This document shows, one piece after another, positions 902 to 18,021 of a stretch of 35,871 nucleotides of DNA. Location of the stretch: the NCBI GenBank assembly GCA_020847495.1, contig JADLCA010000436.1, positions 1 to 35,871 on the forward strand. Reading direction: 5' to 3'. The DNA comes from Candidatus Hydrogenedentota bacterium. GTDB taxonomy: Bacteria; Hydrogenedentota; Hydrogenedentia; Hydrogenedentales; SLHB01. The notes under the pieces are model-generated. The model was not told the origin of the DNA and did no database searches. It saw nothing but the letters and a program-made list of their open reading frames with translations. A program made the position numbers and the translations under genes. Every line of letters starts with the position of its first letter. Positions within the stretch are counted from its first letter, which is position 1.

Positions 902-3724
902 ATGCATCCGAACTACATGCGCATAGTGATCCTGGGCCTCGCACTGGCGGCCTTTTCATTCGGCGGATTCGGCGATGCCTCCGCGCAGACGGTGTTCGAA
1001 CGCGTGTTCGGCATTTCCAAGACGCTCGACGCAGATATGGTGGCGAAGGTGAAAGCCCTTCCGGCGGGCGAACGCCTGCCTGTGGACCGCGATGGCGACG
1101 GGACGCCCGACGAGCTCTGGTATCTCGATACCACCAAACGGCACACCAAACAGCCGCTGCTGGTGCGTGCTGTTGACGAGGACAAGGACCTCGCCGAAAC
1201 CGGCCGCCCCGACCTCGACAGCGACGCGTACTTCTACGACTGGGGCGCCGACGGCGCCATCGACGTCGTCACCGACTACCAGGATAACGACGGCGACGAT
1301 GACGTGGACGAGATGGGCATCTTCTACGACAAGAGTTGGAAAGATGACAAGGACGACATCACGGTGTGGTGGGGCGTCGATGTGGGTGATGACAACCTGC
1401 TCTGGTACGACGTGGACGGCACGTACTACCAGGACTTGTGCCAGTACCGCACGCACTTCAGCGGCGACGAGATGTTCTACCAGTTCCGCCTTGCGGAAGG
1501 GTTTGATGCGTGGCTGAATGTATTTGAAGACCCCTTCGCGTTCTATGACGCCGATGGCGACACGTGCAGCGAGGTCGTGGTCCGCGTGTGCGCGCTGGGA
1601 CACGCCGTCGAGAACCTGCGCTACAGCATCGACGCGGATGGCGATGCCTTCGGCACACGCACGCATGACTATGAGTTCTCGGTGACCGCTCTCCCTGGCG
1701 ACTCCGCGATGAGCACGGAAGGGGTGGCGGTCGCGCCGATGCAGGTGCGCGGCATACCGACGCACCCGGTCTTGTCCTGGGCGGATACGCGCGCCTACGC
1801 GAAGACTGCGCCATGGGCAAAAGCCATGCTCACGTGGGATGAACTCAACGCGAACACGGAAGGCGAGGTGGATAAGGATTCGCATGAGCGGTGGGAAGGG
1901 CTCATTAACCGCGCCTCGCGGCGCGGCGATTTCCCGCAGGTTGGCGGACCTCCCACAAGCGCGTTCAACAAGCGGGTGGAGGTGAGCGAGCACCCGGCGA
2001 GCCCGTTGCGTCTCTATTTCGACACGGCCGATCAGCGGCTACATCTGCTGGGTGCGCGTTACGCGTACCTGGACGTCGACTACAACCTCGACGGCACCTT
2101 GGATGCCCGTTACGAGTACGAAGACACGGATGCGGATGGCGTGTTGGACCGGCGGCGGATCGATCTCGATGGCGATGGCACGGTCGAGTTCGACTGGGCC
2201 ATGAATGGCATCGGTCGAGAGATCGACCTTGAATACGAACCCGTGTCTGCTGTCTACACCCAAGTTCTATCCGAGGTCCTCGCGAACAGCCAGCGTTTCA
2301 TCGACACGGCGAAGGGTCTGCTCGAAGACTCCGCGGACCCGGTGGAGACTTTCTTTCTGAACGAACTTCCCGCGTGGCATGCAGAGCGCGAGCTGGGCCT
2401 TCGTATCCGCACAACACCCGGCGGCGCGCGCTACTACATGGACCTCGTGCGGGACCGGCTCTTTCATCGCCTATCAGAGAAATTTGGTGACAATCCAGCG
2501 TGGACGAAGGTGGAGCAGGCGTATTCGTCCGGCGATGTTACCGCCGCGGCGGATGCTCTCGCGAAGATGAAGCCTGGCGGCGAGACCCCGGTAGCAGCCG
2601 CTCCCTTCGGGTCCTTTACGAAACGAGTCGGCATCCGCGTGGACAACAGCGGCCATAAGCCACGTGAGCACTGGCCGGTTGTTTTGCCGGTCGCGGAAAT
2701 CAGGAAGATCGCGCCCGATTTCAATCCCAGGAACTGTGCCGTTACTTTGGACGAGCGCTGGCTGGATTGGTATGAACTCCCCCACCAGATCGACACGCTG
2801 GATGAAAATGTGGGAGAAGAACTTTCCTTTTCGGCGGACCTCGGCGCGAACGCCACCGAGGAGTTCTACATCGCCTACTCCCCCGAGGGAACGCGCGAGA
2901 CCTCCTTCCCGCGGCTGACCAGTGCCGTGCTTGACACGCCCGCGTATGTGGCGTGGGAGTCGGATGCGGGCGCATACCGTTTCTACACGGGGCAGTTCGA
3001 TTACTTCGGCAAGCAATCGGATCGCGGCCTTCCGCGCGCGGAGCGCTTGCTCTATCCGATCGTTGAAGTGAACTACCATGCGGAACAGGACTGGGGTATT
3101 GACGCGCTCCACGTGGACGAGACCTCCGGATTGGGCGGCCTTACGCTCCATTTGGGTGACGCGTCGTATCTTGTTCAAAGCCCCGCGGGCAAGGGCGATG
3201 TCGTGTTTAAGCACCGCGTGCTGTTCTCGGGGCCCGTGCGCTCGGCGGTCGAGATTACGGCAGAGAACGTCGTGCCCGGGAACGCGGCTGTTGGCGCGCG
3301 ATTCCTCTGCATCATCTACGCAGGACGCAGGGAGAGCGAGATCCGCGCCCAGATCACCGGCGTGAACGAACCGGTAGATATTTCCGCCGGCCTTCTTAAA
3401 CTCGTGAGCGAAACGTCGTTCTCGGACGCTGGAACCGGGGTTCTTGGCACGTGGGGTTTCCAGGAGGAAGGGATTGGCGAGATCGGCTTGTCTGTCATGG
3501 TTCCGCCTTCGGTCGCCAAGGAGGTCGTGGAACTGGATCACGAGCGCCGTATTCGGTGCAGCGCACAGGACGCGTCCCTGCGTTACTGGATCCTGGGCGA
3601 CTGGCGGCGCGGCATGCAGTATCCCGTGGCGCCGACGGTGGATAATTGGCGGAGGGAGACGAATGAACTGGCGCGGCAGCTTACGCAAGCGCCCGCTGTT
3701 ACACCTGTCCCGACAGATTCGTGA
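902..3724 (+). CDS. Secreted DUF4861-like protein with acidic calcium-binding-type loops
   Basis: The 940-residue protein starts at the ATG right after the upstream stop; a GGGGAG Shine-Dalgarno lies inside the previous gene. Residues 1-29 look like a signal peptide ending ASA-Q. Residues about 60-430 hold at least six D-x-D-x-D-G-type loops (DRDGDGTPD at 62, DNDGDDDVD near 128, DADGD at 216 and 244, DTDADG near 408, DLDGDG at 421), resembling EF-hand, dockerin or thrombospondin-3 calcium sites. The C-terminal third (about 570-930) resembles DUF4861, with AWESD at 684-688, the YRFYTGQFDYFGK stretch and a YH-x4-WGIDALHV segment (about 725-738). DUF4861 proteins commonly occur near polysaccharide-degradation genes but have no firm activity. 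Together with the beta-helix neighbour this looks like a secreted polysaccharide-processing pair. The DUF4861 assignment is from memory of the motif. Confidence 0.7.
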   Translation: MHPNYMRIVILGLALAAFSFGGFGDASAQTVFERVFGISKTLDADMVAKVKALPAGERLPVDRDGDGTPDELWYLDTTKRHTKQPLLVRAVDEDKDLAETGRPDLDSDAYFYDWGADGAIDVVTDYQDNDGDDDVDEMGIFYDKSWKDDKDDITVWWGVDVGDDNLLWYDVDGTYYQDLCQYRTHFSGDEMFYQFRLAEGFDAWLNVFEDPFAFYDADGDTCSEVVVRVCALGHAVENLRYSIDADGDAFGTRTHDYEFSVTALPGDSAMSTEGVAVAPMQVRGIPTHPVLSWADTRAYAKTAPWAKAMLTWDELNANTEGEVDKDSHERWEGLINRASRRGDFPQVGGPPTSAFNKRVEVSEHPASPLRLYFDTADQRLHLLGARYAYLDVDYNLDGTLDARYEYEDTDADGVLDRRRIDLDGDGTVEFDWAMNGIGREIDLEYEPVSAVYTQVLSEVLANSQRFIDTAKGLLEDSADPVETFFLNELPAWHAERELGLRIRTTPGGARYYMDLVRDRLFHRLSEKFGDNPAWTKVEQAYSSGDVTAAADALAKMKPGGETPVAAAPFGSFTKRVGIRVDNSGHKPREHWPVVLPVAEIRKIAPDFNPRNCAVTLDERWLDWYELPHQIDTLDENVGEELSFSADLGANATEEFYIAYSPEGTRETSFPRLTSAVLDTPAYVAWESDAGAYRFYTGQFDYFGKQSDRGLPRAERLLYPIVEVNYHAEQDWGIDALHVDETSGLGGLTLHLGDASYLVQSPAGKGDVVFKHRVLFSGPVRSAVEITAENVVPGNAAVGARFLCIIYAGRRESEIRAQITGVNEPVDISAGLLKLVSETSFSDAGTGVLGTWGFQEEGIGEIGLSVMVPPSVAKEVVELDHERRIRCSAQDASLRYWILGDWRRGMQYPVAPTVDNWRRETNELARQLTQAPAVTPVPTDS

Positions 3725-3727
3725 GCC

Positions 3728-5041
3728 TCAACTGCGCGCGATCGCGGCCAGCGCGTCTTTTGCCGCGCTGAGAGTCTGGTCGATGTCCGCGGGCGTGTGT
3801 GCCGTGGACACGAACCAGATGCCCATGGACGTGATCTGCACGCCACGCTCCTGCAGGGCAAGCCACAGGGCGCGCCCGCGTGAGTAATCCGTCTGCCGCG
3901 CGCTGCGATAGTCCGTCACGGGCTGTGCATCGCGCGGCAAGAATGTCGCGCTGAACACGGTGCCCACGCCGCGCATGGCCAGTGGCGCGCCCGCGTCCAT
4001 GCTTAGCGTACGCAGACCATCCATGAGGCGATCGCCCATCGTGAGCGCATGCCCCAATGCGGCCCCGCGCCCCGCGGTCAAGGTTTCCAATGCGGCGACG
4101 GTGCCCGCCATCGCGAGCGGATTGGAGTTGTACGTGCCCGCGTGGACGGTCTTCAGCGCGCCGAACCGTTCCATGTACTCCGCTTTGCCCACGACCGCGC
4201 TCACGGGCATGCCCGCGCCCAGCGCCTTCGCGAAGATGGCCAAGTCCGGCGTGACGCCGAAATACTCCTGCGCGCCGCCCAAGGCCACGCGGAATCCCGT
4301 GATGACTTCATCAAAGATCAACAACGTGCCGTGCGCGTCACATAGAGTACGAAGCGTCTTCAGGAATTCCGGTTCTCCGGGAATCAGGCCCGCCGCTGAT
4401 GCAAAGGGATCGCAGATGACCGCAGCCAATTCCTTGCCGTGTTGTGCGAATAGACGTTCCGCCAGTTCGGCGTTGTTCCACGGCAGCACGAGCAGATTCG
4501 CACCGTCCTCCGGCTGTTGTCCCTCCGACGCGGGCCGCATCGTTGGCGCTTCGCGCGGACCCAACTCCGCCGTGGGCGACGCCTGGTTCCAGGCGATATT
4601 GTCCATCCATCCGTGGTAATGGCCTTCGAAACGCAGTATTTTGGGACGACCGGCGGCCGCGCGGGCCAGGCGCAGCGCGGCATGCACCGCTTCCGAGCCG
4701 GTCGTGCTGAAACGCACCATCTCCGCGCAGGGCACGTGGGCGCGCAGCAATTCCGCCGCGTACACCTCGTGTTCGGATTGCTGCCCGTAGACGAGGCCGC
4801 GCGCGGCCTGACGGCGGATGGCTTCGATGACGGGCGCGGGGGTGTGCCCAAGAATCATGGGTCCGTGGCCGAGCAGATAGTCGATATATTCGTTGCCGTC
4901 AGCATCCCACATCCGCGAGCCCTCGGCCCGCTCAAAGAACAGCGGCACGGGTTCGGAGATTGCGCGGATGTTGCTGTTGATGCCGCCGGGGATGACTTGG
5001 CGCGCGCGTTCATACCACGCTTTGGACATGTCGTACCGCAT
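3728..5041 (-). CDS. Class III PLP aminotransferase, glutamate-1-semialdehyde aminomutase-like
   Basis: 437 residues beginning MRYDMSKAWYERARQVIPGG. The open frame extends to 5134, but that would overrun the upstream gene by 82 bases; the ATG at 5041 has AGAGGA upstream and an 11-base gap. Class III fold signs are clear: STTGSEAVHAALRLAR (about 112-127), HYHGW (141-145), FDEV (243-246) and the PLP lysine K272 in IFAKALGAGMPVSAVVG. HAGTYNSNPLAMAG is the usual segment near the second substrate loop. It resembles HemL, but the setting (symporter and sugar-type dehydrogenase upstream, no tetrapyrrole genes) makes a role in amino-sugar or amino-polyol metabolism more likely than heme synthesis. 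That role is inference. It is last in a three-gene operon and converges on the DUF4861-like gene with a 3-base gap. Confidence 0.88.
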   Translation of the reverse strand: MRYDMSKAWYERARQVIPGGINSNIRAISEPVPLFFERAEGSRMWDADGNEYIDYLLGHGPMILGHTPAPVIEAIRRQAARGLVYGQQSEHEVYAAELLRAHVPCAEMVRFSTTGSEAVHAALRLARAAAGRPKILRFEGHYHGWMDNIAWNQASPTAELGPREAPTMRPASEGQQPEDGANLLVLPWNNAELAERLFAQHGKELAAVICDPFASAAGLIPGEPEFLKTLRTLCDAHGTLLIFDEVITGFRVALGGAQEYFGVTPDLAIFAKALGAGMPVSAVVGKAEYMERFGALKTVHAGTYNSNPLAMAGTVAALETLTAGRGAALGHALTMGDRLMDGLRTLSMDAGAPLAMRGVGTVFSATFLPRDAQPVTDYRSARQTDYSRGRALWLALQERGVQITSMGIWFVSTAHTPADIDQTLSAAKDALAAIARS

Positions 5042-5052
5042 GGATGTGTCCT

Positions 5053-6096
5053 CTACGCTGGAGCAACTTCCCGCCCCGTCCTGCTTGATTCGTAGGCCGC
5101 AAGCGCGGCCGCAACAGCCTGGCGTCCGTCCCACCCCGAGGCGGCAAGCGGCTTGCCATCATCAATCGCGTCGATCAGGTTCTGGATGTTGGCAGCATAC
5201 GACTTCAAACGCACGGGGTCGAGGAAACCCTTGCCGGCCCAATCGATCGGTTCCTGGGTGGCGGCGACTTCCCACGGTCCTCCATCAAAGGACACCCGCA
5301 TCTCGCCGTACCAATCCACGTCAACCAGACCGAGCTCGCACACGATCTGCGTGGCGCCGCCGGTCCGCGCAAACCCGGGCTTGACGAGTTCAAACGAACA
5401 GAAGATGGTGCAAACAGTGCCGTCGTCCATGGTCAAGGTCACGTCGCTGGTGCCGTCCACGGGATAGCGGCCATCGAGGCTCGACACTTTTGCAAAGACT
5501 GAACGGATTTCGCGTCCGGTGAGGTAGCGAGCCTGATCGATATTGTGAATGCCATGGCCCAGCAGAATACCGACATTGGCCGGGTCCAACTGCCACTTGG
5601 GTACGGCGCCTTCCATGCCATCCGGCACAAGCTGAAAGGAATGCATGTGGAGGATGCGTCCCAGCTTGTCGGAGTCCAGCAGTTTTTTTGTTTCGAGGGG
5701 GCAGGTCCGCAGACGCTGGCTGAACATGACCGAGCAATGGGCGCCGTGCAGTTTGCACGCGTCCAGGATGGCGTCGCATGCTTCGACGGTGCACGCCATG
5801 GGCTTTTCGATCATCACGTGCTTGCCGGCCTGGGCGGCCGCCAGTCCCTGCTCTCCATGACTGGCGTGCGGGGTCGCGATGCACACGAGGTCCACCTCGT
5901 CGCATGCGATCAGTTCTTCCGGTGAAGCAAAGGCACGAACACCATACTCTTGGGCGAGGCGCGGGGCGCGGCTTCCGCCCGCGATTCCGATGAGGCGCGC
6001 GCGCGGTATCAAGGAGGCCACGGTACGGGCGTACGTCTGCCCCATGAACCCCGCACCAAGGATGCCGACGCCCAATGAGCCGTTCCGGCTTGCCAT
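5053..6096 (-). CDS. Gfo/Idh/MocA family NAD(P)-dependent oxidoreductase (cytoplasmic)
   Basis: 347 residues from MASRNGSLGVGILG. A longer frame reaches 6168 but overlaps the symporter gene; the ATG at 6096 lies 5 bases after the symporter stop and has a GAAGGGA sequence upstream. The N-terminal Rossmann motif is GILGAGFMG (11-19). The family EKP motif is at 97-99, and GHGIHNIDQARYLTG holds the usual histidine and aspartate region of the substrate site. Gfo/Idh/MocA enzymes oxidise or reduce sugar or cyclitol hydroxyls with NAD(P). There is no export signal, so it acts in the cytoplasm, presumably on the compound brought in by the SSS symporter. The keto product could feed the aminotransferase next door, or the reverse could happen during breakdown of an amino sugar. 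Confidence 0.92.
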   Translation of the reverse strand: MASRNGSLGVGILGAGFMGQTYARTVASLIPRARLIGIAGGSRAPRLAQEYGVRAFASPEELIACDEVDLVCIATPHASHGEQGLAAAQAGKHVMIEKPMACTVEACDAILDACKLHGAHCSVMFSQRLRTCPLETKKLLDSDKLGRILHMHSFQLVPDGMEGAVPKWQLDPANVGILLGHGIHNIDQARYLTGREIRSVFAKVSSLDGRYPVDGTSDVTLTMDDGTVCTIFCSFELVKPGFARTGGATQIVCELGLVDVDWYGEMRVSFDGGPWEVAATQEPIDWAGKGFLDPVRLKSYAANIQNLIDAIDDGKPLAASGWDGRQAVAAALAAYESSRTGREVAPA

Positions 6097-6101
6097 CGTT
6101 T

Positions 6102-7850
6102 TCAATTCCCTTCTTCGTGCGCACTGGACGGGTGCAGGATGCGGCGTGCGCAAGCCGCGAGAACGCACCCGAAAAGCACAAGAAAAGCACCCACCATTAT
6201 CGAGAGCCGCGCTTCCTGGAATGGCACACTCGCGAGCACGGCCACCATCATGATTGCCCCGAGCGAGGCACTCGCCAATCCGATGATGCGCACGGCAACG
6301 GTCGCATCGCCGCCCTCGTCAAATGCTTCCTTCGCGGGGCGCTCCTTTCCGGTCAGACCTGACAGGAACTGCGTTATCTCTTCGATGCGCCGTGGGGAGT
6401 CGGGCGCGAGCATGCTCACCACGAGCAGGACGGCGGCCGTGGGCACGCCTGAAATCCATGTCAGCCATTGTACATCGCGCAGGAACTTGAGGCTCTCGCC
6501 GCCGGGGATGTTGTGATAGCTCAGCATGTATGCTGTCACCCCGCAGACCGTACCCGTCACAAACGCGGCTAAGGCTCCCCGGTTCGACGCGCTGCGCGTC
6601 AACAGGCCGGCCATCATCGGTATGGCTACCGGAGGCATCAGCACGCTGAATAGTTGCGCCATGTAATTGACAAGATCCTCCATGGTCTGGGCATTCGCAA
6701 GGTACAGCGCGATCCCGAGGGCCAAGGCGCCAATCAGGAGGGTGGCGTAGCGTCCGGTGAGGAGGAGGCCGCGCTCGCTCAGGTGGGGGGCAAACTGCCG
6801 CTTCACGATGTCGTTTGTGATCACGGAGGCGCCCGCGTTGTAGTCGCTGGAAAGCATGGACATGGTGGCCGAGAACATCGCGGCGATGATCACGCCGATC
6901 ATGCCCGCTGGCAGCAGCTCGCGGCAAAGCAAGGGGTAGACGTCATTCGGGTTCGCGATTCCCGGCATGAACACCTTGGCCGCCAGCGCGGGCAGAAACA
7001 GGAGTGGAGGGCCGAATAACATGAATGCGGCCACCAAGTATCCCACCTTGCGCGCGTCGCGATCGCTACTCACGGAATAGTACCGCTGCACGTAGGGCCA
7101 CTTGGTCGCGTAGGTAAGCAGTAGCAGCACGCCGAACGCAATCAGCCAGGGCCAGGTGTAGGTTCCGCCTACCGGGTGCGCGAATTCGGGGGGAAGGCTC
7201 TCCAACAGCGTGGTCAGGCCGCCCGCCCTGCCTACTGCGAGCGGAGCCAGCACCAGCACGGCAACCGCCACGATCACGAACTGGATGACGTCGGTGATCA
7301 TCACGGCCCATAAGCCGCCCAGGAAGGTGTAGGCCAGGATGATCGCGCCGCACACGACGATCGAAAGCGTGAGCCCGTGTTCGAATTGAATTCCAAGGCT
7401 GACGGTGACCATCTTGCCAATGACAAAGAGCTTCAGTCCGTCATCGATGATGATCAGGGGCAGGCCGATCCAACTAAAACCCTGCCGAAGGGAGGGTCCA
7501 AAGCGGGTCTCGATGTATTCGAGAGGACTGGTTGTCACGGCGCGCCGCCAGCGGGCCGCCAGGAAGTATGCGCTGAACAGGCATGCCGGCACCGAGAACC
7601 ACCAGATCGTGATTGCCACCATGCCGTATTGATAGGCCAATGCGGAGTACGCGATGAAGGTGAAAGCGCTGAAGGTCGTCATGTACAGCGAGATGCCCGA
7701 AACCCACCAGGGCACTTGGCGTCCGCCGCTGAAGAAATCCTTCAGATCCTTCATGCGGTTGGCATAGTAGAGGCCGATTGCCAGCATTACGCCGAAGAAT
7801 CCGGCCAGGATGACGAGATCGGCGACGGCAAGATCTGTGTTCAACGACAT
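6102..7850 (-). CDS. SSS-family sodium/solute symporter
   Basis: About 582 residues from MSLNTDLAVADL; an in-frame start 33 bases further upstream would add only a short hydrophilic stretch. Neither start has a strong Shine-Dalgarno. The chain has at least twelve hydrophobic segments and typical SSS sequence such as DFFSGGRQVPWWVSGISLYMTTFSAFTF near the N terminus (about 36-64) and FSATMSMLSSDYNAGASVITND in the middle, as in SGLT/PutP relatives. It should couple sodium (or proton) entry to uptake of a sugar, polyol or carboxylate. It is the first gene of a minus operon with the oxidoreductase (5-base gap) and aminotransferase, and diverges from a secreted hydrolase-sulfatase pair. The substrate is unknown; the context suggests a sugar derivative released outside the cytoplasm. 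Confidence 0.93.
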   Translation of the reverse strand: MSLNTDLAVADLVILAGFFGVMLAIGLYYANRMKDLKDFFSGGRQVPWWVSGISLYMTTFSAFTFIAYSALAYQYGMVAITIWWFSVPACLFSAYFLAARWRRAVTTSPLEYIETRFGPSLRQGFSWIGLPLIIIDDGLKLFVIGKMVTVSLGIQFEHGLTLSIVVCGAIILAYTFLGGLWAVMITDVIQFVIVAVAVLVLAPLAVGRAGGLTTLLESLPPEFAHPVGGTYTWPWLIAFGVLLLLTYATKWPYVQRYYSVSSDRDARKVGYLVAAFMLFGPPLLFLPALAAKVFMPGIANPNDVYPLLCRELLPAGMIGVIIAAMFSATMSMLSSDYNAGASVITNDIVKRQFAPHLSERGLLLTGRYATLLIGALALGIALYLANAQTMEDLVNYMAQLFSVLMPPVAIPMMAGLLTRSASNRGALAAFVTGTVCGVTAYMLSYHNIPGGESLKFLRDVQWLTWISGVPTAAVLLVVSMLAPDSPRRIEEITQFLSGLTGKERPAKEAFDEGGDATVAVRIIGLASASLGAIMMVAVLASVPFQEARLSIMVGAFLVLFGCVLAACARRILHPSSAHEEGN

Positions 7851-7989
7851 GGCATGACAATGTGTGCAGCGCCCGTTACGCACTGGAGTCGCCTCGCAAC
7901 GGCGGCGCGAATCCGGTATGCTGACGCCTTGGTTCCCACGGTACCCCTGGTTAACGGATCAGGTTTGCGCAACCATAGGACAAATCGCC
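7851..7989. promoter_or_regulatory. Divergent control region between symporter and hydrolase-sulfatase operons
   Basis: 139 bases separate two outward-facing operons whose products fit one pathway. Promoters for both must lie here or in the gene starts. I see no convincing -35/-10 pair and no clear operator palindrome, so only the region is marked. The AGGAC at about 7977-7981 is the likely ribosome binding site of the plus-strand gene. Confidence 0.4.
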
Positions 7990-9195
7990 ATGGCGAAACA
8001 ACTCTTCGTCGAAGGATGCCTCGCGGGTTGGGGGTTGCTGCCCTTTTTCGTGCTTTCCTGCGTGGGCGCGCAGAATGCTCTGGCTTGGGAAGGGTTCCGT
8101 TGGGACACCTGGAGAGAGATCACTGGCGTCACAGCGCCTGCATTGGACAGTCCTCAGGCTGGCCGCCTTGACCTCCTGCCCCTGTTGGACGCTGGCGTGC
8201 CCGGCGCGGACCCCATTACGACGAAGGAGGAGTGGGAAAAGAGGCGCGATGGCATCCGGTCAGTGCTCGCGGAATTGATCGGCACACCCACGAACCTGAG
8301 CGCGCCCGCAGCTTCGGCCGAAGTGCTCGGCGAGGAGGACTTGGGCACGTACACGCGCCGGCACCTGCGCATTGCCAGCGAGCCCGATGACACGATCCCC
8401 GCCTATCTCCTGATTCCGAAGAAGCCCGTTCAAACGCCTTGCCCCGCCATGATCGTCCTCCATCAGACCCAGGCGCCGGGGAAGGAAGAAGCCTGCGGCA
8501 TGACCGGTGACCCGAACATGGCTTTCGCGAAGGAGCTTGTCGAGCGCGGCTACATCTGCATCGCGCCCGATGCAATTGGTTTTGGCGAGCGCATCCCCAA
8601 GGGCGAGCAGCCCTACTATGGCGCGCACGACTTCTATCGAAAGCATCCCCAATGGTCCTTTTTCGGCAAGATGATCTGGGACGTCCATCGCGTCGTCGAC
8701 TACCTGGAAACCCTGCCCGAGGTGGATAAATCGCGCATCGGCTGCATCGGGCACTCCCACGGCGCGTACGGCACGATCATGGGCACGATCTTCGAACCGC
8801 GTATCCGTGTGGCGGTGGCGAGTTGCGGATTCAACACGCTGCGCACCGATCCCTCGCCGAATCGCTGGTGTCAGCTCACGGCGCTGCTTCCGCGGCTCGG
8901 CTTCTACGTCGATGACGTGAAGACTGCGCCTCTGGACTGGCACGAGATCGTGGCGTGCCTAGCGCCGAGATCCTATTTCAACTACGCCACGCTGTACGAC
9001 GACGTCTTTCCCAACACGGAGAATCTCGCGTCCATCTACACGCAGTTGACCTCGGTGTATGCGCTCTACGGAAGTTCGGATCACTTCGCAGGCGCGCTTG
9101 TCACGGGCAAGCATTCGTTCCCGCCGGATTCGCGACAGATGGTCTATCATTGGATTGATCGTCAATTCGATCTACCTGCAAGCAACCCCGAATAG
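7990..9195 (+). CDS. Secreted alpha/beta hydrolase (dienelactone hydrolase/esterase type)
   Basis: 401 residues from the ATG at 7990, chosen because AGGAC sits 8 bases upstream and a hydrophobic leader (about 1-32, ending ALA-W) follows; the frame is open from 7864 without such signals. The nucleophile elbow is GHSHG with Ser256, preceded by the strand RIGCI. VLHQTQAP (157-164) may supply the oxyanion hole. Asp338 and His375 (GKHSFP) are plausible remaining triad members. Related exported proteins include acetyl-xylan or glucuronoyl-type esterases and Abhydrolase_7-like proteins, so removal of an ester group from a carbohydrate outside the cytoplasm is a reasonable guess. The sulfatase follows after 12 bases, probably in the same transcript. 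The exact substrate cannot be read from sequence. Confidence 0.85.
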   Translation: MAKQLFVEGCLAGWGLLPFFVLSCVGAQNALAWEGFRWDTWREITGVTAPALDSPQAGRLDLLPLLDAGVPGADPITTKEEWEKRRDGIRSVLAELIGTPTNLSAPAASAEVLGEEDLGTYTRRHLRIASEPDDTIPAYLLIPKKPVQTPCPAMIVLHQTQAPGKEEACGMTGDPNMAFAKELVERGYICIAPDAIGFGERIPKGEQPYYGAHDFYRKHPQWSFFGKMIWDVHRVVDYLETLPEVDKSRIGCIGHSHGAYGTIMGTIFEPRIRVAVASCGFNTLRTDPSPNRWCQLTALLPRLGFYVDDVKTAPLDWHEIVACLAPRSYFNYATLYDDVFPNTENLASIYTQLTSVYALYGSSDHFAGALVTGKHSFPPDSRQMVYHWIDRQFDLPASNPE

Positions 9196-9207
9196 AGGGA
9201 GGAAGAA

Positions 9208-10773
9208 ATGACTGACATGACGCGCAGGCAGTTCGTAGCAACCACGGCTGCGGCGGCCATTGCCAATGCCGCAATTGGAGATGCGAGCGCGCAACCCGCG
9301 CCGCGGCCAAATATCCTCTTTATCCTTGTCGACCAGCATCGCTTCGATTGCATCGGCGCCTATGGCAACGAGCAGATCCGTACGCCTGCCATTGATAATC
9401 TGGCGATCGATGGCACCCGCTATACCAACAGCTTCTGCGCCTACCCCGTGTGCACGCCCTCACGCTACTCCATCTGGTCAGGCCGTTACGTGCATGAGCA
9501 CGGCGGGTGGAGCAATCACTGCACCCTCAAACCGGGCACGGCGACGTGGCCCGCGCTCCTTCGCGATGCGGGGTACCACACCGCCGCCGCGGGGAAGATG
9601 CACTTCACGCCGACCTATCTGGATGTCGGCTTTCAGAGGTTGACGCTCTCCGAGCAGGACGGGGACGGGCGATGGGACGACGACTACCACCGCATGCTGC
9701 GCGAGCGTGACACCATCGACGGCAACGATCTCGAGGATCAGCGAAAGGAATACCGCGAACATGCGCGGCCTGAGTACTGGGAGACCTTCGGCGCGCTCGC
9801 GTCCAACCTGCCGGAGGAACTGCACTCCACCACGTGGACCGGCGACCGGGCGGTTGAAGCACTGGAGCAGTGGACTGATTCCGGCAACCTCTTCGCCGCC
9901 AGCTTCATCAAACCGCACCACCCTTTCGATCCGCCGCAGACCTGGGCGGAGCGGCACGACCCCGCGAGCATGACGTTGCTGCCCGGCTGGACGGACACGT
10001 GTTTCGCGCACGACCTCGAGCTTCAGACCGGCTACTTCCCGTATGAGAAGTTGTCGGAGCCCGCACTGAAGCGGGTGATGGCCTATTACTACGCGGCTAT
10101 CGAGCACATCGATCAGCAGGTCAACCGCATGATTGAAGTTTTGAAGCGCAGAGGCCTCTATGAGAACACGCTCGTTGTGTACACGAGCGACCACGGCGAG
10201 TACATGGGCTACCACCACCTGCTCCTCAAAGGCAACTGGATGTACGACCCGGTTATCAAGGTGCCGCTGATTATCAAGTTTCCGGGGGCGGAAGATGCCG
10301 GGCTGGTCTCGGACAGGTTGGTCAGCAATGTCGATCTCGCGCCCACGATTCTCGATCAATGCGGTATCGCTCCGCTGGACACGATGCGCGGGCTGAACCT
10401 CATGGACAAGGAGGCCAACCGCTCAGTCGTCTGCGCCGAATCCAGCGGTACCGCGCAACTCATGGCCCGCACGAAGACCCGGAAACTCCTTGTGCATGAG
10501 GGGAAGGAACTCGCCTTCCTCTACGACTTGGAGAAGGATCCGCTTGAAGCCGTGAACGTGCACGATGATCCGGTGTACGCGGAAGATCTAGCGATGCTGC
10601 GAAAGGCGCTTGCAGACTGGCGCGGGCTGAATCCCGTGCTTGAGACGGTGCTCGACGAAAAGGCGCCGCAGATCGACCAACCCAACGTTCGCCCCGACCT
10701 CAGTCATCGCGACGCCATGATTGCGTACACCCGGGAAAGAATGGACGCCTTCTACAAAGCAAACAGCGTCTGA
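9208..10773 (+). CDS. Tat-exported sulfatase (type I, formylglycine-dependent)
   Basis: 521 residues; GGGAGGAAGAA lies just before the ATG. The leader MTDMTRRQFVATTAAAAIANAAIG is a twin-arginine signal (RR-x-F), so the folded enzyme is exported. The sulfatase signature CTPSR is at 82-86; Cys82 is the residue converted to formylglycine by a maturation enzyme not present in this window. Metal ligands begin at D42 in LFILVDQH, with Gln43 instead of the usual second Asp, a variant seen in some subfamilies. YTSDHGEYMG supplies the later Asp-His pair. It probably removes sulfate esters from a glycan or glycan fragment. It is the second gene of the divergent operon and converges on the aldose epimerase with a 13-base gap. 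Confidence 0.95.
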   Translation: MTDMTRRQFVATTAAAAIANAAIGDASAQPAPRPNILFILVDQHRFDCIGAYGNEQIRTPAIDNLAIDGTRYTNSFCAYPVCTPSRYSIWSGRYVHEHGGWSNHCTLKPGTATWPALLRDAGYHTAAAGKMHFTPTYLDVGFQRLTLSEQDGDGRWDDDYHRMLRERDTIDGNDLEDQRKEYREHARPEYWETFGALASNLPEELHSTTWTGDRAVEALEQWTDSGNLFAASFIKPHHPFDPPQTWAERHDPASMTLLPGWTDTCFAHDLELQTGYFPYEKLSEPALKRVMAYYYAAIEHIDQQVNRMIEVLKRRGLYENTLVVYTSDHGEYMGYHHLLLKGNWMYDPVIKVPLIIKFPGAEDAGLVSDRLVSNVDLAPTILDQCGIAPLDTMRGLNLMDKEANRSVVCAESSGTAQLMARTKTRKLLVHEGKELAFLYDLEKDPLEAVNVHDDPVYAEDLAMLRKALADWRGLNPVLETVLDEKAPQIDQPNVRPDLSHRDAMIAYTRERMDAFYKANSV

Positions 10774-10786
10774 CTCGGACGGCCTG

Positions 10787-11926
10787 TTACTTCTCTACCC
10801 CGAAGCGGTACACCGTGACTTGGCTGTACTTCTCTCCCGGCCGGAGGACCGCGGATGGGAACTCGGGATGGTTGGGCGAATCCGGAAAACGCTGCGCCTC
10901 CAGGCAGAACCCGCCATGCTTCACGTAGGCCACGCCCGCCTTGCCTTTGAGGGAACCGTTGAATCCGTTGCCCGTATAGAACTGCAGGCCCGGCTCCGTG
11001 GTGAGCACTTCAAGCGTGCGCCCGCTGCTGTGGTCCACAGCGCGCGCGCCCAGCTCGACCCAGCCCGTCTTCTTGTTCAACACGTAGCAGAGATCGTAGC
11101 CCCCGTTGGTATCGCCATAATACTGTGAAATGGCGTGACCCGCCGTGAAGTCAAACGGCGTCCCCTTCACCGGCGCAAGTTCGCCCGTGGGAATCAATGT
11201 GTCATCCACCGGCGTGTAGCAGCCAGCATACATTGTGAGTTCATGGTCCAGCACGCTGCCAGCATCCTGTCCCGCCAGATTGAAATAGCTGTGGTGCGTC
11301 AGGTTCACCACCGTCGGCGCATCCGTCTCCGCCTCGTAGACGAGCCGCAGTTCATTCGTGTTGGTGAGCGTGAAGTTGACCACGCATGTCAGATTCCCGG
11401 GATAGCCTTCCTCGCCATCCTTGCTCGTGTAGGTGAAGCGCACCATCGGACCCTTGTCCAGCATGAAGGCCTCCCCTTTCCACATGACCTTGTTGAAACC
11501 CTTGTTGCCGCCGTGGAGATGGTTCGGCGCGTTGTTCGTCGCGAGAGTGTACTCCTTGCCGTCCAGCGTGAAGCGGCCCTTGGCGATGCGGTTCGCGTAG
11601 CGCCCGCAAATGCTTCCGAAATAGGGATTGTGCTGCTCGTAGTCTTCGATCTTGTCGAACCCCAGCACAATGTCCTCATTCACCCCATCGCGGCCGGGCG
11701 TCTCCAGGGCAACGAGCGTTGCCCCATAGTCGATGAAGGTCGCCTTCAGGCCGTTGGCGTTGGTCAGCATGTACGCCGTTACCACCGTGCCGTCGGCGGT
11801 CTGCCCGAAAGGACGCTCCTCGATCTGCCCCCGCGCGCGCTCGGCAGCGTAGGCAGCGCATAGTCCGCACATGAGCAATACCACGGCAATACGCACCAAA
11901 GATTGAACGGCCTGTATCCGTACCAT
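10787..11926 (-). CDS. galM: Secreted aldose 1-epimerase (mutarotase)
   Basis: 379 residues with GAGGGA about 8 bases before the ATG. Residues 1-28 form a signal peptide (hydrophobic run AVVLLMCGLCAAYA), so this is an exported mutarotase. The family motifs are all present: FGSICGRYANRI (103-114), NHLHGG with the active-site region His at 136-138, HSYFNLAG containing the second catalytic His, and CLEAQRFPDSPN with the catalytic Glu near the C terminus. It interconverts alpha and beta anomers of aldoses such as glucose or galactose; outside the cytoplasm it could speed conversion of sugars released by secreted hydrolases into the transported anomer. It is divergent from a zinc-ribbon membrane protein across a 369-base gap and seems to be transcribed alone. 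Confidence 0.93.
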   Translation of the reverse strand: MVRIQAVQSLVRIAVVLLMCGLCAAYAAERARGQIEERPFGQTADGTVVTAYMLTNANGLKATFIDYGATLVALETPGRDGVNEDIVLGFDKIEDYEQHNPYFGSICGRYANRIAKGRFTLDGKEYTLATNNAPNHLHGGNKGFNKVMWKGEAFMLDKGPMVRFTYTSKDGEEGYPGNLTCVVNFTLTNTNELRLVYEAETDAPTVVNLTHHSYFNLAGQDAGSVLDHELTMYAGCYTPVDDTLIPTGELAPVKGTPFDFTAGHAISQYYGDTNGGYDLCYVLNKKTGWVELGARAVDHSSGRTLEVLTTEPGLQFYTGNGFNGSLKGKAGVAYVKHGGFCLEAQRFPDSPNHPEFPSAVLRPGEKYSQVTVYRFGVEK

Positions 11927-12295
11927 TGCGGCAATCCCTCCAGATTCGCAGTCCCGGCTCTCATTCAGCTTGCGGTGTGATCGCGCTCCAATCTATTTCG
12001 CCGGGCTCTCCAGATCAAGAAACTTGGACCGCCACCCCACCGTACCCCGATTAAGACACAGGCGAGGGCGCCTGTGCCACACGCGCGTGCCATGCCTTGG
12101 TTGGTTCTTCCTATCTTCATGTCTCGGGTGCGCCGAAGTAATCGAGAATCCCAGATGCGCAGTGGAGCTGAGATGGACGTGTGGCACAGGCGCCCTCGCC
12201 TGTGTCTTCAATTGGCTGGGGCACCCTCGAATGTAAAGAGCCACCCCTTCAGCGTACAATCACCTGAGGCTCCTGGAGCATGAAGGAATCACCAT
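11927..12295. other. 369-base intergenic region holding an inverted-repeat doublet
   Basis: This gap lies between the divergent epimerase and zinc-ribbon genes. No coding sequence is visible. Its main content is the paired repeat at 12053-12208, described separately. The ribosome binding site of the epimerase (GAGGGA, minus strand, about 11934-11939) and of the zinc-ribbon gene (AAGGA, about 12283-12287) lie at its edges. Confidence 0.7.
12053..12208. repeat. REPIN-like doublet: two 31-bp perfect inverted repeats 94 bp apart
   Basis: The left arm (12053-12083) and right arm (12178-12208) are exact reverse complements over 31 bases. Each arm is itself a hairpin: CACAGGCG, a four-base AGGG loop, then CGCCTGTG (12057-12076 in the left arm). 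Two inverted palindromic units around a short spacer is the arrangement called REPIN or BIME in other bacteria. No transposase is nearby. The spacer has no evident ORF. Confidence 0.85.
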
Positions 12296-12691
12296 ATGAC
12301 CGATACTGCCGAACCCACTCCCCCGGCTCCGGCCACCGCCTCCGTGCCGCCCGTGCCCGGCCGAGTACTATGCCCCCGTTGCGGCCACACCATCGATTCC
12401 TGGGACAACTTCTGCCGTTACTGTGGAAGACCCATGAAGGCCCGCGCCAAGTCAAATGCGCCGTGGTATTACGAGCCACTCTGGATCTTGGTGCTCTCCA
12501 TCGCAGTAATCGGTCCTCTTGCGCTGCCGCTTGTCTGGAAATCGCCAAAACTCACGCGCTCCGCGAAATGGGGCTTCACGCTCTTCCACGTCATCTACAC
12601 GGCCATGCTTGTCTACGTGCTCTGGTTCTGGTGCCTCTACATGTGGCGGCTCTACTCCACCCTAACTCAGGATTTCGGCGCTTTCCGTTAG
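12296..12691 (+). CDS. Small zinc-ribbon membrane protein, function unknown
   Basis: 131 residues with AAGGA about 9 bases upstream of the ATG. After a Pro/Ala-rich start (5-22) comes a zinc ribbon, CPRCG at 26-30 and CRYCG at 40-44, four cysteines in two CxxC pairs. Two hydrophobic segments follow (about 62-82, WILVLSIAVIGPLALPLVW, and about 95-118, LFHVIYTAMLVYVLWFWCLYMW), so the ribbon probably sits on the cytoplasmic face of a two-pass membrane protein. This layout is common among uncharacterised bacterial proteins. The gene stands alone, bracketed by two different inverted-repeat doublets, which suggests its flanks are permissive sites for repeat insertion. No function is assigned. Confidence 0.8.
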   Translation: MTDTAEPTPPAPATASVPPVPGRVLCPRCGHTIDSWDNFCRYCGRPMKARAKSNAPWYYEPLWILVLSIAVIGPLALPLVWKSPKLTRSAKWGFTLFHVIYTAMLVYVLWFWCLYMWRLYSTLTQDFGAFR

Positions 12692-13172
12692 CCTTGATTG
12701 TCCTTGTTTTCCGCGAGGACAGGAGAACCCACATCCTCCGGTTTTCCCTGGAAAGAGGCGAAGGCGGCAGGGCTCATTCGTAGGGCGGGATTTGTTCCCG
12801 CCTACTTGGCGAGAAGGAAAGCACTGGGGTGCGTTAAACGGCATTTCCCGCTAGACATCCCGGGTACGCGGAACCCGAGTCAGCTTCCCCTCCAATGCGC
12901 AGTTGGGAAGACAAGAAGGCGGGAACAAATCCCGCCCTACACTTTGCACGTGTTCGGGAACTCGCGTGACACCCCTTGCGAAATTCCGCTCACGACGGTA
13001 CTATTGAGGGTGTCGCACTGGATCAATCCTGCGAGCATGGCGACGAGCGGCCGTGAAAGGCAAACGCACGACTGCAATCTGAGTAGCGGGGGCGGCCAGA
13101 AAAGCGTTGGTTCGTGCGTGACGCGCCTTTCCACTCTTGCGTGAGAAGGGCCTGAAATGGGGGACACATGTA
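12692..13172. other. 481-base intergenic region with a second inverted-repeat doublet
   Basis: No convincing gene is present. A 148-codon plus-strand frame (12698-13144) runs through the repeat arms and has no ribosome binding site or recognisable protein pattern, so I treat it as non-coding. The main element is the paired repeat at 12780-12940. The last 30 bases contain a GGGGGA sequence that serves as ribosome binding site for the gene at 13173. Confidence 0.65.
12780..12940. repeat. REPIN-like doublet: two 24-bp perfect inverted repeats 113 bp apart
   Basis: The left arm (12780-12803) and right arm (12917-12940) are exact reverse complements. Each arm is a palindrome of the form GGCGGGA-TTTG-TTCCCGCC, able to form a hairpin. 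The sequence is unrelated to the doublet at 12053-12208, so two repeat families flank the zinc-ribbon gene. Confidence 0.85.
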
Positions 13173-14357
13173 ATGGGTATGAAGCGCGAATTCGAACCTA
13201 TCCGGGCACTCATCCATGAGCACCGCTACCCCGAAGCACTGGAAGCTCTGCACAAGATGGAGGCCGAGAACGGCCCCACGGCGGAAACGGAGTTCGGCAA
13301 GGGAATCTGTCTCGCCGCGCTGGGCCGCACCACGGAAGCCCGCGCGACAATCCGCCACTTGAAAGAACTGGGACAGATCGCGCTTGCGCAACAAGTGGCT
13401 GAGCGAATCGACCAAACGGATCCTCTCGGCCTAGAGGAAATGAAGCCCGCCGCGTCTGCAGCGCAAGCGCCGCCCGTCGTTGCACGTCCCAATTCATCAT
13501 TCTACCGGAATGCCTTTTTCGCGGTTGCGGCCGTCGCGGTGCTTCTTGCGTTTGGGTTGTGGGCCATGCGCACGCGTCCGGCCGAGACCGTATCCGAGCG
13601 GGTTTCTCCCACGCCGCCAGTGGCACCGGCCAAACCGGTCTCTCCCGTGCCTGCGGTTAGCGATTCGCAGAAGGACGCGCCGGCCCCTGGCGATACTCAT
13701 ACGCCTCCGGATAGAACCAATCCCAAGGAGAGACTGGCCAATGCGACCCTGAGCTACGGCCGCACGCCCACGGATTCCAAGAACTTCTACACGGCGTCGA
13801 TTCGGATCGTCGATACCGACAAACAGCCTGTTGTGGGCGCGGCAATAGGGCCATGGATTTCCCAGGCAGGCGGTTCGCCCGTGCGGTACGGGGGGTACGC
13901 CACGGATGCCGAGGGCCGCTTCACCTTCGCGGAGTTCCCCGCCGGCGTTGTGTGCGGTTTCAACACTGACCATATCAATGGCTACACGAGTGTCTCTACG
14001 GAGGGTTTTGTCGGAAATGGAGGAGATGAGTTGCCGGAAATGACCGTAGTGGTCGAGAAGCTTAAGGGCGATGTAAAGGGCGTGGCACTTGACACACGAG
14101 GACAGTGGATGTCCGATCAACAGCTCATCGTGGAAGTCTTCTACGATGACGGCAAGAAAGCTGTTCTCTTGGGACAGACATCACCCACCGGCCGTTTCAA
14201 GTTCACCGCTGGGCGCCTTGGGCACAAGCTCCAATTGGCAATTCGGGCCAACGGCGAGCCCTACCACAACTACCGCTGGACCAGCGACGCCCTTCAACTG
14301 AAACCAGACGCCACCATGGACCTCGGGGATCTTGCCTTCTTTCAGAGCAATGGCTGA
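13173..14357 (+). CDS. Single-pass membrane protein: helical-repeat N terminus, C-terminal carboxypeptidase-regulatory-like domain
   Basis: 394 residues from the ATG at 13173, which has GGGGGA 8 bases upstream; the frame opens with a TTG at 13137 that lacks such a signal. Residues about 5-85 look like TPR-type helical repeats (IHEHRYPEALEALHKMEAENG, then GKGICLAALGRTTEARATI). One transmembrane helix follows (about 111-133, AFFAVAAVAVLLAFGLWAM), then a Pro/Ser-rich linker to about 195. The C-terminal half is predicted beta-rich: IRIVDTDKQPVVGAAI...YATDAEGRFTFAEFPAG matches the CarboxypepD_reg/Cna-B-type pattern in which a modifiable strand precedes TDAEGRF. A second similar unit may start near LKGDVKGVALDTRG. 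The topology suggests a cytoplasmic TPR and an outside beta-sandwich. Function is unknown. It ends 46 bases before the pgi remnant. Confidence 0.8.
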   Translation: MGMKREFEPIRALIHEHRYPEALEALHKMEAENGPTAETEFGKGICLAALGRTTEARATIRHLKELGQIALAQQVAERIDQTDPLGLEEMKPAASAAQAPPVVARPNSSFYRNAFFAVAAVAVLLAFGLWAMRTRPAETVSERVSPTPPVAPAKPVSPVPAVSDSQKDAPAPGDTHTPPDRTNPKERLANATLSYGRTPTDSKNFYTASIRIVDTDKQPVVGAAIGPWISQAGGSPVRYGGYATDAEGRFTFAEFPAGVVCGFNTDHINGYTSVSTEGFVGNGGDELPEMTVVVEKLKGDVKGVALDTRGQWMSDQQLIVEVFYDDGKKAVLLGQTSPTGRFKFTAGRLGHKLQLAIRANGEPYHNYRWTSDALQLKPDATMDLGDLAFFQSNG

Positions 14358-14403
14358 AGGATGGAATGTCGGGCAACGCAGATCCCGCTGCAAAAGCCCT
14401 GCC

Positions 14404-14506
14404 TTACCGCAGGCTCTTGTAGTAATTGATCAGCCCGTTCGTGCTCGCGTCGTGCGAGGTCACTACTTTGTCGCCATCCAGTTCCGGTTCGAGGCTCTTC
14501 GCGAGG
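14404..14506 (-). pseudogene. Remnant of the pgi 3' end (displaced gene end)
   Basis: These 103 bases align without gaps to 16309-16411 of intact pgi, with 9 mismatches (about 91% identity), including identical runs of 32 bases (14408-14439) and 38 bases (14458-14495). The encoded tail ends in [15 protein letters not shown] followed by a TAA stop, where intact pgi uses TAG. Of eight codons that differ, six are silent; the two replacements are Thr to Ser and Gly to Ser. Similarity stops abruptly at both edges. The silent bias means both copies evolved as working pgi ends before one was cut off. There is no upstream part of pgi here, so the piece is not a gene. Confidence 0.9.
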
Positions 14507-14581
14507 CGTCTGTGCTCGCGCGCGTGAATTGCGTGGTTAGACTGTGCCAATATGAGATGTACGTAGAAATCGGAGTTGATC

Positions 14582-15040
14582 GTGGCGTCGAAAGAAGACA
14601 AGCATCCAGTAACGCCAGTGACGCTATATAGGGCGGCACTGGATTTCTTGACCGGTGCCAAGGTGTTGGTAGGACACCCCGATGAAGCACGGGCCAGCCA
14701 TTCCTTCGGGCTCCTCGTAGGTTTCTGTCTGGAGGATGCCCTAAAAGCATTTTTGTGCCATACAGGCGACAATGAGACTGATCTGAAGGGCGTTGGACAT
14801 GACCTTGTCAAAGCTTGGAAGAAGGCAGTAGATAGGGGACTGGCATTGGGCGCCAAGCCGCCACAATGGTGTGTAGCGTTGTGCGATATCTACTTCAAGG
14901 ACGATTTCTATGTGCGATACCCTCAAGACAACAGCGGCATGGTTGTTCCGAATAAGGCCAAACTGATCGACGATTTGCGGAAGGTCTTGTCAGTCGTGGG
15001 TGTCGCCTTGGGGATGGACGAGCACGGAAATTTCACGTAG
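14582..15040 (+). CDS. Small HEPN-like protein, function unknown
   Basis: 152 residues from a GTG at 14582, favoured over the TTG at 14576 because a CGGAG motif sits 6 bases upstream of the GTG. The sequence is largely helical. The segment [20 protein letters not shown] followed by [18 protein letters not shown] has the look of HEPN-type proteins: a helix with a conserved acidic residue and lysine, a short loop, then GH-D-L. The R-x(4-6)-H RNase motif of toxic HEPN proteins is not evident, so activity as an RNase cannot be claimed. It lies in the low-GC island and faces the nuclease gene, tail to tail, with 168 bases between. It could be a partner, a cargo gene or a remnant of a defence module. 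The family call is tentative. Confidence 0.55.
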
Positions 15041-15208: not shown

Positions 15209-16088
15209 TCAGTGAGAGGGAAGTGACAAGATTACAGTTCTCAGCTCGATGACATTCACCGGGCACTCGGGCCAGTCATTCACCCAACAGACGACGAAAT
15301 CACACTGGCTAGAGTCGTGACCGTGCAACTCGAAGTTTGACGCTTTGTACTCAAATTCTATACGGGCCTTGGCCCAAAGGTTCTTTTTGGGATCGTACAA
15401 GTACTTTCCTTCGCAATCAGGAAAGCCTTGCTGCACTGACTCTATATTGAAACCTAGTTCGCGACTTATCATAGCAAAAAGAAACACAACGCCCTGTTCA
15501 TTGATGGGAGCGTGTCGCAGACCGCGAAAGTCAATCGGTTCTCCGTAGAATTGCCCCGGAGTTTTCTTCTTCTCTGCTCCGTTCGGAATCGCGGGGACCA
15601 ACACAGATTTCATGGCTCCAGTGCGATTCTCACAAGTTGCCTCACGCTTACTTGGCGCGTCATTAGGAAGAGTCAAGATGAGATGCTCGTTTTCCGCTTT
15701 CCATTTCCGGTAGCGGATCAGAACGCTCGCCCACTTACCAAATCTTCGCACGTAGGGCCTGACGGAATACTCGCAATGTGCGCTACAATCGTTGAAGCCC
15801 GGTTCGTGGCCAATGGTCTTCTCGACCCTGTGTAAGGCCTGAAACAGGCTAGCGTCCTCGATCTTTTGCCCTCGATTCTTCAAATGCTCGGTAGGCGAGG
15901 TTCTTCGCAGTCCAGCTAACTCCAGTGCATTGCCTATGTTGCCGAAGCGGCCATTCACGGTAGACGCAGATATGACTGAAGCAATGTCTCGTTTGGAAAG
16001 GCTGTCCTTCCCAAGACGCTCAGCAAGGTTCTTGAGGATCTCTATGATTTGCTCATTACTGTAGCGAGGATACAGGCCCCCTGCTCAC
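15209..16088 (-). CDS. Putative endonuclease: homing-endonuclease-associated repeats plus PD-(D/E)XK-like domain; 5' end probably frameshifted
   Basis: The uninterrupted frame runs from 16084 to 15209 (291 codons) after a TGA at 16085-16087, but has no ATG, GTG or TTG before the GTG at 15958. Coding-like sequence clearly extends upstream of 15958: PRYSNEQIIEILKNLAERLG...FGNIGNALELAGL is the pattern of the homing-endonuclease-associated (HNH_repeat) domain. A second copy follows (SLFQALHRVEKTIGHEP...RRFGKWASVLIRYRKW). Removing one base from the five-C run at 16077-16081 would join this frame to a GTG at 16088. The C terminus resembles a PD-(D/E)XK nuclease: PDCEGKY, then ARIEFEYKASNF with the E-x-K element, then HGHDSSQCDFVVCWVNDW. 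Known relatives are mostly uncharacterised. In this island it is the best candidate for a mobility or homing nuclease. No Shine-Dalgarno was found for any start. Confidence 0.72.
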
Positions 16089-16275: not shown

Positions 16276-16308
16276 AGAGTCTAATCTCCTCATACGCCCA
16301 CAGCGCCC

Positions 16309-18021
<1,713 letters not shown>

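Follow-up and report, generated by a model that had tools for sequence, protein, structure and literature searches.

The window, as we call the whole stretch of DNA analyzed here (35,871 nucleotides, contig JADLCA010000436.1 of the Candidatus Hydrogenedentota bacterium assembly GCA_020847495.1), carries beside pgi a minus-strand open frame of 291 codons plus stop (15209 to 16084) in which two HEAR (homing-endonuclease-associated) repeats precede a C-terminal domain predicted to be PD-(D/E)XK-like. This architecture defines a real and widespread family, and its C-terminal domain has no name in Pfam or NCBIfam. The reading that we favor, with about an even chance of being right, is that of a single-gene, horizontally moving, stand-alone restriction- or defense-type nuclease, carried as toxin-antitoxin-type cargo. 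The 291-codon frame, the two repeats, and the core motifs quoted in a previous sequence-only reading were all found in the sequence.

Domain architecture and predicted fold

Both HEAR repeats claimed in that reading were recovered by the Pfam model HNH_repeat (PF18780) above its curated cut-off (two matches in the window protein, 70.1 bits against a cut-off of 26, E value of 2.1e-19). In the AlphaFold (AF2) model, both are compact helical HTH-like units. Repeat 1 (residues 8 to 59, 15908 to 16063, minus strand) is predicted as a four-helix unit (helices at residues 10 to 24, 31 to 35, 40 to 47, and 50 to 56) within a block of pLDDT mostly above 90, and repeat 2, the second Pfam stretch (residues ca. 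77 to 131, 15692 to 15856, minus strand), has helices at 77 to 91, 97 to 103, 108 to 115, and 118 to 131. A fold search with the full-length protein returned mainly TetR-like HTH matches to the repeats, none of them significant. The repeats are followed by a poorly conserved linker of low confidence (residues 140 to 184, 15533 to 15667, minus strand; pLDDT below 50).

The C-terminal half of the window protein had no match in Pfam or NCBIfam. Its nuclease-like domain, delimited from alignments and the AF2 domain model (residues 178 to 291, 15212 to 15553, minus strand), was modeled alone with a pLDDT of 90.9 and a pTM of 0.83 in the order a-b-b-b-a-b-b-a, which includes, in AF2 only, the a-b-b-b-a-b core of the PD-(D/E)XK superfamily. 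The residues that mark the domain are E196, PD222-223, E243-x-E245, H254-x-H256, D262, and CW266-267. Across an alignment of 46 members, the invariant or nearly invariant residues were N-E (first helix), PD (ahead of strand 2), E-x-E (strand 3), H-x-H (following strand 3), and D..CW (strand 4). Along the predicted fold, this succession is that of a PD-(D/E)XK core; E196, D223, E243, and H256 were kept in nearly all members. The lysine of the E-x-K proposed in the sequence-only reading behaved differently. Position 247 (the K of EYK) is a lysine only in the group of the window copy and a few others, with R, V, S, E, or Q in the remaining relatives. Thus, of the conserved D...(D/E)-x-K pattern, D223 and E243/E245 are kept and the lysine varies, for which reason we call the domain only PD-(D/E)XK-like, of a predicted E-x-E type. 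The nuclease core suggested previously, for which a structure prediction with E and K in the site had been proposed as a check, therefore stands as regards the predicted a-b-b-b-a-b fold and the conserved E, PD, E-x-E, and H-x-H, and not as regards the lysine.

A fold search with the domain placed the nucleases Cap4 and MspJI at the top, with SPARDA and EcoRV further down; the top hits belong to the PD-(D/E)XK superfamily, but no match was significant (best E value of 0.36), and Pfam and PDB profile searches gave no match of the domain to a PD-(D/E)XK family. There was also no Pfam match to HNH, LAGLIDADG, GIY-YIG, His-Cys, or Vsr-type nucleases, either for the window protein or for the C-terminal domains of the 46 relatives. 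In a smaller set of 19 full or partial relatives, with 48 to 82% identity over the C-terminal domain, the core motifs were conserved and hence are not due to chance. The stretch HAPINEQG is over-conserved in this set, having itself served as a search pattern, a bias from which the wider, HMM-found members of the 46-member alignment are free.

Start of the window copy

A normal in-frame start is missing from the window copy, which may be damaged and not made. The sequence-only reading had placed its 5' end at 16088, where there is indeed a GTG (16088 to 16086), in a frame different from that of the protein and overlapping an in-frame TGA (16087 to 16085; 16085 to 16088 together, minus strand). 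The earliest in-frame ATG, GTG, or TTG lies at 15958, and starting there would remove repeat 1. Since the nearest full-length relative (L004) begins with MAKYTKEQ at the same place as the window frame, the start here is either unusual (CTG) or damaged; the possibilities are a CTG start, a frameshift by one base within five consecutive G, and a damaged start.

Family and spread

A scan across genomes recovered 20 loci with a related C-terminal domain, whose titles named WOR-3, Nitrospirae, Nitrospinota, Planctomycetes, Myxococcales, Chloroflexi, Gemmatimonadetes, Acidobacteria, Actinobacteria, Proteobacteria, a Melainabacteria-type group, and two archaeal groups. In 18 of them, the protein is intact and full-length and is built like that of the window, with two repeat-like units, then a linker that varies, then the domain; the other two (L003 and L021) are broken copies. 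Altogether, relatives with two HEAR repeats and the domain span 14 named groups at phylum level, among them archaea. The distribution is patchy. Among 68 genomes of the host phylum, only that of the window has the gene (one other gave a repeat-only match), and a domain-profile search found members in 22 of 392 Planctomycetota-type, 10 of 346 Nitrospirota-type, 5 of 400 Chloroflexi-type, and 3 of 147 WOR-3-type genomes.

In a phylogenetic tree, the window copy fell into one group with copies from WOR-3 and Nitrospirota (100/100), and the copy of a genome from the Nitrospirota search (G1205) grouped with one from Lokiarchaeota; the row of L126 is void owing to an out-of-frame translation, and the other rows stand. 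These cross-phylum groupings point to spread by transfer, to be read with caution as most member genomes are metagenome bins, and the nuclease-domain family has crossed between bacteria and archaea. A phage origin was rejected, with no match in phage records (none below an E value of 0.5 for the C-terminal domain) or in IMG/VR viral contigs, and so was a plasmid origin, as plasmid matches cover the repeats only, the best being haloarchaeal HNH-type or hypothetical proteins. Searches of an open-access paper library gave no description of HEAR repeats fused to a PD-(D/E)XK domain.

The same domain also occurs with other partners. It is fused to an EVE domain in L102 (Pfam, 4.6e-5) and, by resemblance, to EVE-like tails in L103 to L107, L129, and L130, while in L074 it is doubled. 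Four further proteins (L108 to L110 and L128) combine it with small C-terminal repeats of the form LTAWQKFCQxKRLEGLxFxEIAKLWK. A family without a Pfam name thus swaps its DNA-reading part (HEAR, EVE, or small C-terminal repeats). EVE-PD(D/E)XK proteins are putative modification-dependent restriction enzymes (PMC7641849), and EVE has been shown experimentally to read 5mC and 5hmC in VcaM4I (PMC7897488). The EVE and other partners suggest a nuclease module that exchanges readers and favor a restriction-like role, although the EVE link rests on paralogues and not on the window protein itself.

The duplicated pgi end

The gene pgi (glucose-6-phosphate isomerase, as assigned in the sequence-only reading; 16309 to 17949, minus strand) is intact and 94% identical in amino acids to that of a congener, G052, in which the pgi end has no island. 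The duplication of its 3' end, noticed previously, is real. A displaced copy ending at the stop codon (14402 to 14506, minus strand) matches the intact end (16307 to 16411, minus strand) over 105 bp at 91%, and these are the only two places of this repeat in the genome. The order is pgi, HEAR gene, a 154-amino-acid open frame (14576 to 15040, plus strand; no Pfam or NCBIfam family), and the pgi-end copy. By eye, the product of the 154-amino-acid frame looks small and all-helical and may be a small HEPN-like protein.

We then defined a direct-repeat mark (at least 30 bp, 80% identity, 300 to 3,500 bp apart, one copy within 300 bp of the gene) and counted it around different classes of genes. 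It adjoined 8 of 27 HEAR-type genes versus 4 of 224 ordinary genes (P = 2e-6). However, it was equally frequent around PIN-toxin genes of the host genomes (10 of 40; P = 0.78 against the HEAR-type genes). The neighbor's 3' end is duplicated in the window and in L009, L022, and L013, and one repeat copy is often a neighbor's 3' end that stops at the stop codon (window, L022, L013, and the PIN loci L239, L243, and L254). In L022, L009, L092, and L013, the repeats enclose toxin-type cargo and the nuclease gene lies outside. The equal marking of PIN genes and the repeats around toxin cargo indicate that the mark belongs to small-cargo insertion in general. The pgi-end duplication was therefore rejected as proof of homing, and its interpretation as the cut site of the nuclease is not supported, all the more as the relatives lie beside unrelated genes.

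Toxin-antitoxin-type cargo was often seen within direct repeats of 35 to 140 bp with no recombinase gene in the unit; examples of repeat-flanked cargo are the PIN loci L239, L243, L245, L254, and L270, together with L009 (6890 to 7737) and L022 (6403 to 7372). A duplicated gene end around such cargo could be a general insertion signature. From the PIN control, a duplicated neighbor gene end that often marks toxin-antitoxin-type cargo is a clue to insertion without an own recombinase.

The displaced pgi-end copy is 89% identical to the pgi end of G052, and the 9% difference between the two copies in the window resembles that between species of the genus. The layout agrees with the integration, by one crossover, of a circle that bore the pgi end of a relative. 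G052 itself was rejected as a clean empty site: its pgi lacks the island, and the segment corresponding to window positions 3727 to 14350 (85% identity) is inverted or relocated there, so the flanks cannot be joined. One break of this rearranged segment coincides with the island next to pgi, and a second lies near 3702 to 3727. A REP-like, high-copy repeat of ca. 29 bp was also seen dozens of times in G000 and G052, in inverted pairs ca. 130 to 150 bp apart (for instance, window positions 12912 to 12940 and 12780 to 12808, or 12053 to 12083 and 12178 to 12208).

Mobility and genomic settings

The gene moves alone as a minimal unit. Two pairs of loci share 896 bp at 96.2% (L093 and L095) and 869 bp at 91.6% (L009 and L022), in both cases the gene and only 14 to 62 bp of flanks, with unrelated surroundings. 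Such movement is not specific to homing, since toxin-antitoxin genes may do the same. The inverted ends of 5 to 6 bp of these mobile units were discarded as terminal repeats, being expected by chance.

The mobile setting proposed in the sequence-only reading was borne out in the relatives, found in a tyrosine-integrase island with 114-bp repeats (L014), next to an IS91-type transposase with 133-bp repeats (L006), and in an integron-like array. In the last of these (L099, 6525 to 9968), at least six attC-like repeats of ca. 105 to 115 bp with GTTAGGY/ACCTAAC-type ends were seen, with a HEAR-type gene among the cassettes. Others lie in toxin-antitoxin neighborhoods, with PIN, BrnT, PemK/MazF, AbiEii, nucleotidyltransferase, and YhcG genes among the neighbors. 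A single spot in a Nitrospira family is shared by several kinds of cargo (L126, 7396 to 9391; L123, reverse, 6898 to 8817; L229, after 5118). It lies between convergent genes with 4 to 9 bp between their stops and is empty in eight relatives. In G1124, it holds an insert of ca. 2 kb with a HEAR-type gene; in G1046, it is occupied by a BrnT module together with another HEAR-type gene, not the same as that of G1124 and broken; other genomes have different small cargo there.

Function and alternative explanations

In the reading that we favor, the two HTH-like HEAR repeats would bind DNA and, beyond a flexible linker, the compact PD-(D/E)XK-like domain would cut it with E...PD...E-x-E...H-x-H. 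The gene would belong with toxin-antitoxin modules to one class of accessory cargo and would have entered at the pgi 3' end by the route of such cargo. This would have kept pgi whole and placed a 105-bp copy of its end beyond the insert, a structure that a single crossover of a circle made of the pgi end and the cargo would give. The insertion spots and the direct-repeat mark shared with toxin-antitoxin genes count for this proposal, and the non-significant fold matches, the unconserved lysine, and the missing normal start of the window copy count against it. The PADLOC defense models did not match the window protein, the best value being 0.016 in one of 20 members.

We consider it unlikely, and no longer the leading explanation, that the gene encodes a free-standing homing endonuclease. 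Such an enzyme would cut pgi at an empty 3' end (or the ends of other genes), repair would then copy the gene in, and the element would supply a recoded gene end of its own. The repeats are named for homing enzymes, the gene moves alone, the neighbor's end is duplicated at several loci, and the close relatives L003 and L021 are degraded, as in homing cycles. However, the relatives have no common target, with neighbors that differ between loci (pgi, a leuB-like gene, a fabF-like gene, a TPR gene, glyQ, and others, named by eye), there is no intron or intein, members sit in an integron-like array and as cargo of an integrase island, PIN toxins carry the repeat mark just as frequently, and the repeats often enclose toxin-antitoxin-type cargo instead of the nuclease gene. 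Far less probable is a broader version, in which HEAR nucleases would be self-mobile, with loose specificity, and break DNA near gene 3' ends, the breaks admitting adjacent toxin-antitoxin modules with duplicated gene ends.

We find it quite doubtful that the protein is a nuclease-derived DNA-binding regulator, or a toxin-antitoxin-like partner of the adjacent 154-amino-acid gene, that has lost catalysis. The variable lysine and the frequent adjacency of toxin-antitoxin genes would agree with this, but the retention of E196, D223, E243, and H256 argues for catalysis, the neighboring gene varies by locus, and the units move alone. Somewhat more credible, though still on the unlikely side, is that, irrespective of the role of the family, the window copy is a functionless remnant in decay. 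The lack of an in-frame start, the TGA immediately before the frame, and the GTG shifted by one base speak for this, as do the broken copies at L003, L021, and L123; against it, the 291 codons are uninterrupted with every conserved residue present, and a CTG start or errors of a draft assembly are possible. Our confidences in these explanations overlap, since a broken window copy is compatible with any role of the family.

Comparison with known systems

Like other HEAR (PF18780) proteins, the window protein has two HNH_repeat units well above the cut-off, and haloarchaeal plasmid proteins of this family, several of them annotated as HNH endonucleases, match it over the repeats only. It differs from the HNH proteins in that it matched neither HNH nor LAGLIDADG models and that a PD-(D/E)XK-like domain without a name is attached to its repeats. 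Free-standing homing endonuclease genes, such as those of the phage seg/mob type, are also single genes between ordinary genes that move alone, whereas the HEAR relatives share no target site or gene and sit in toxin-antitoxin spots.

Cap4, MspJI, EcoRV, SPARDA, and HamA (PDB 6vm5, 4f0p, 1az3, 9qbp, and 8vx9) were the best-ranked nuclease folds and have the same a-b-b-b-a-b order, although these matches are not significant, there is no sequence similarity, and the window protein has E-x-E versus E-x-K. BamHI is a known E-x-E case. The EVE-PD(D/E)XK enzymes resemble the family in the nuclease domain itself (L102 and the other EVE fusions) and in a similar defense-type neighborhood. The modified-base reader expected of a type IV enzyme is present only in other members of the domain family, and the window protein carries HEAR repeats in place of EVE, so its trigger is probably a sequence and not a modified base. 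If active, the nuclease-domain family would add a sequence-reading partner to the restriction-like toolbox.
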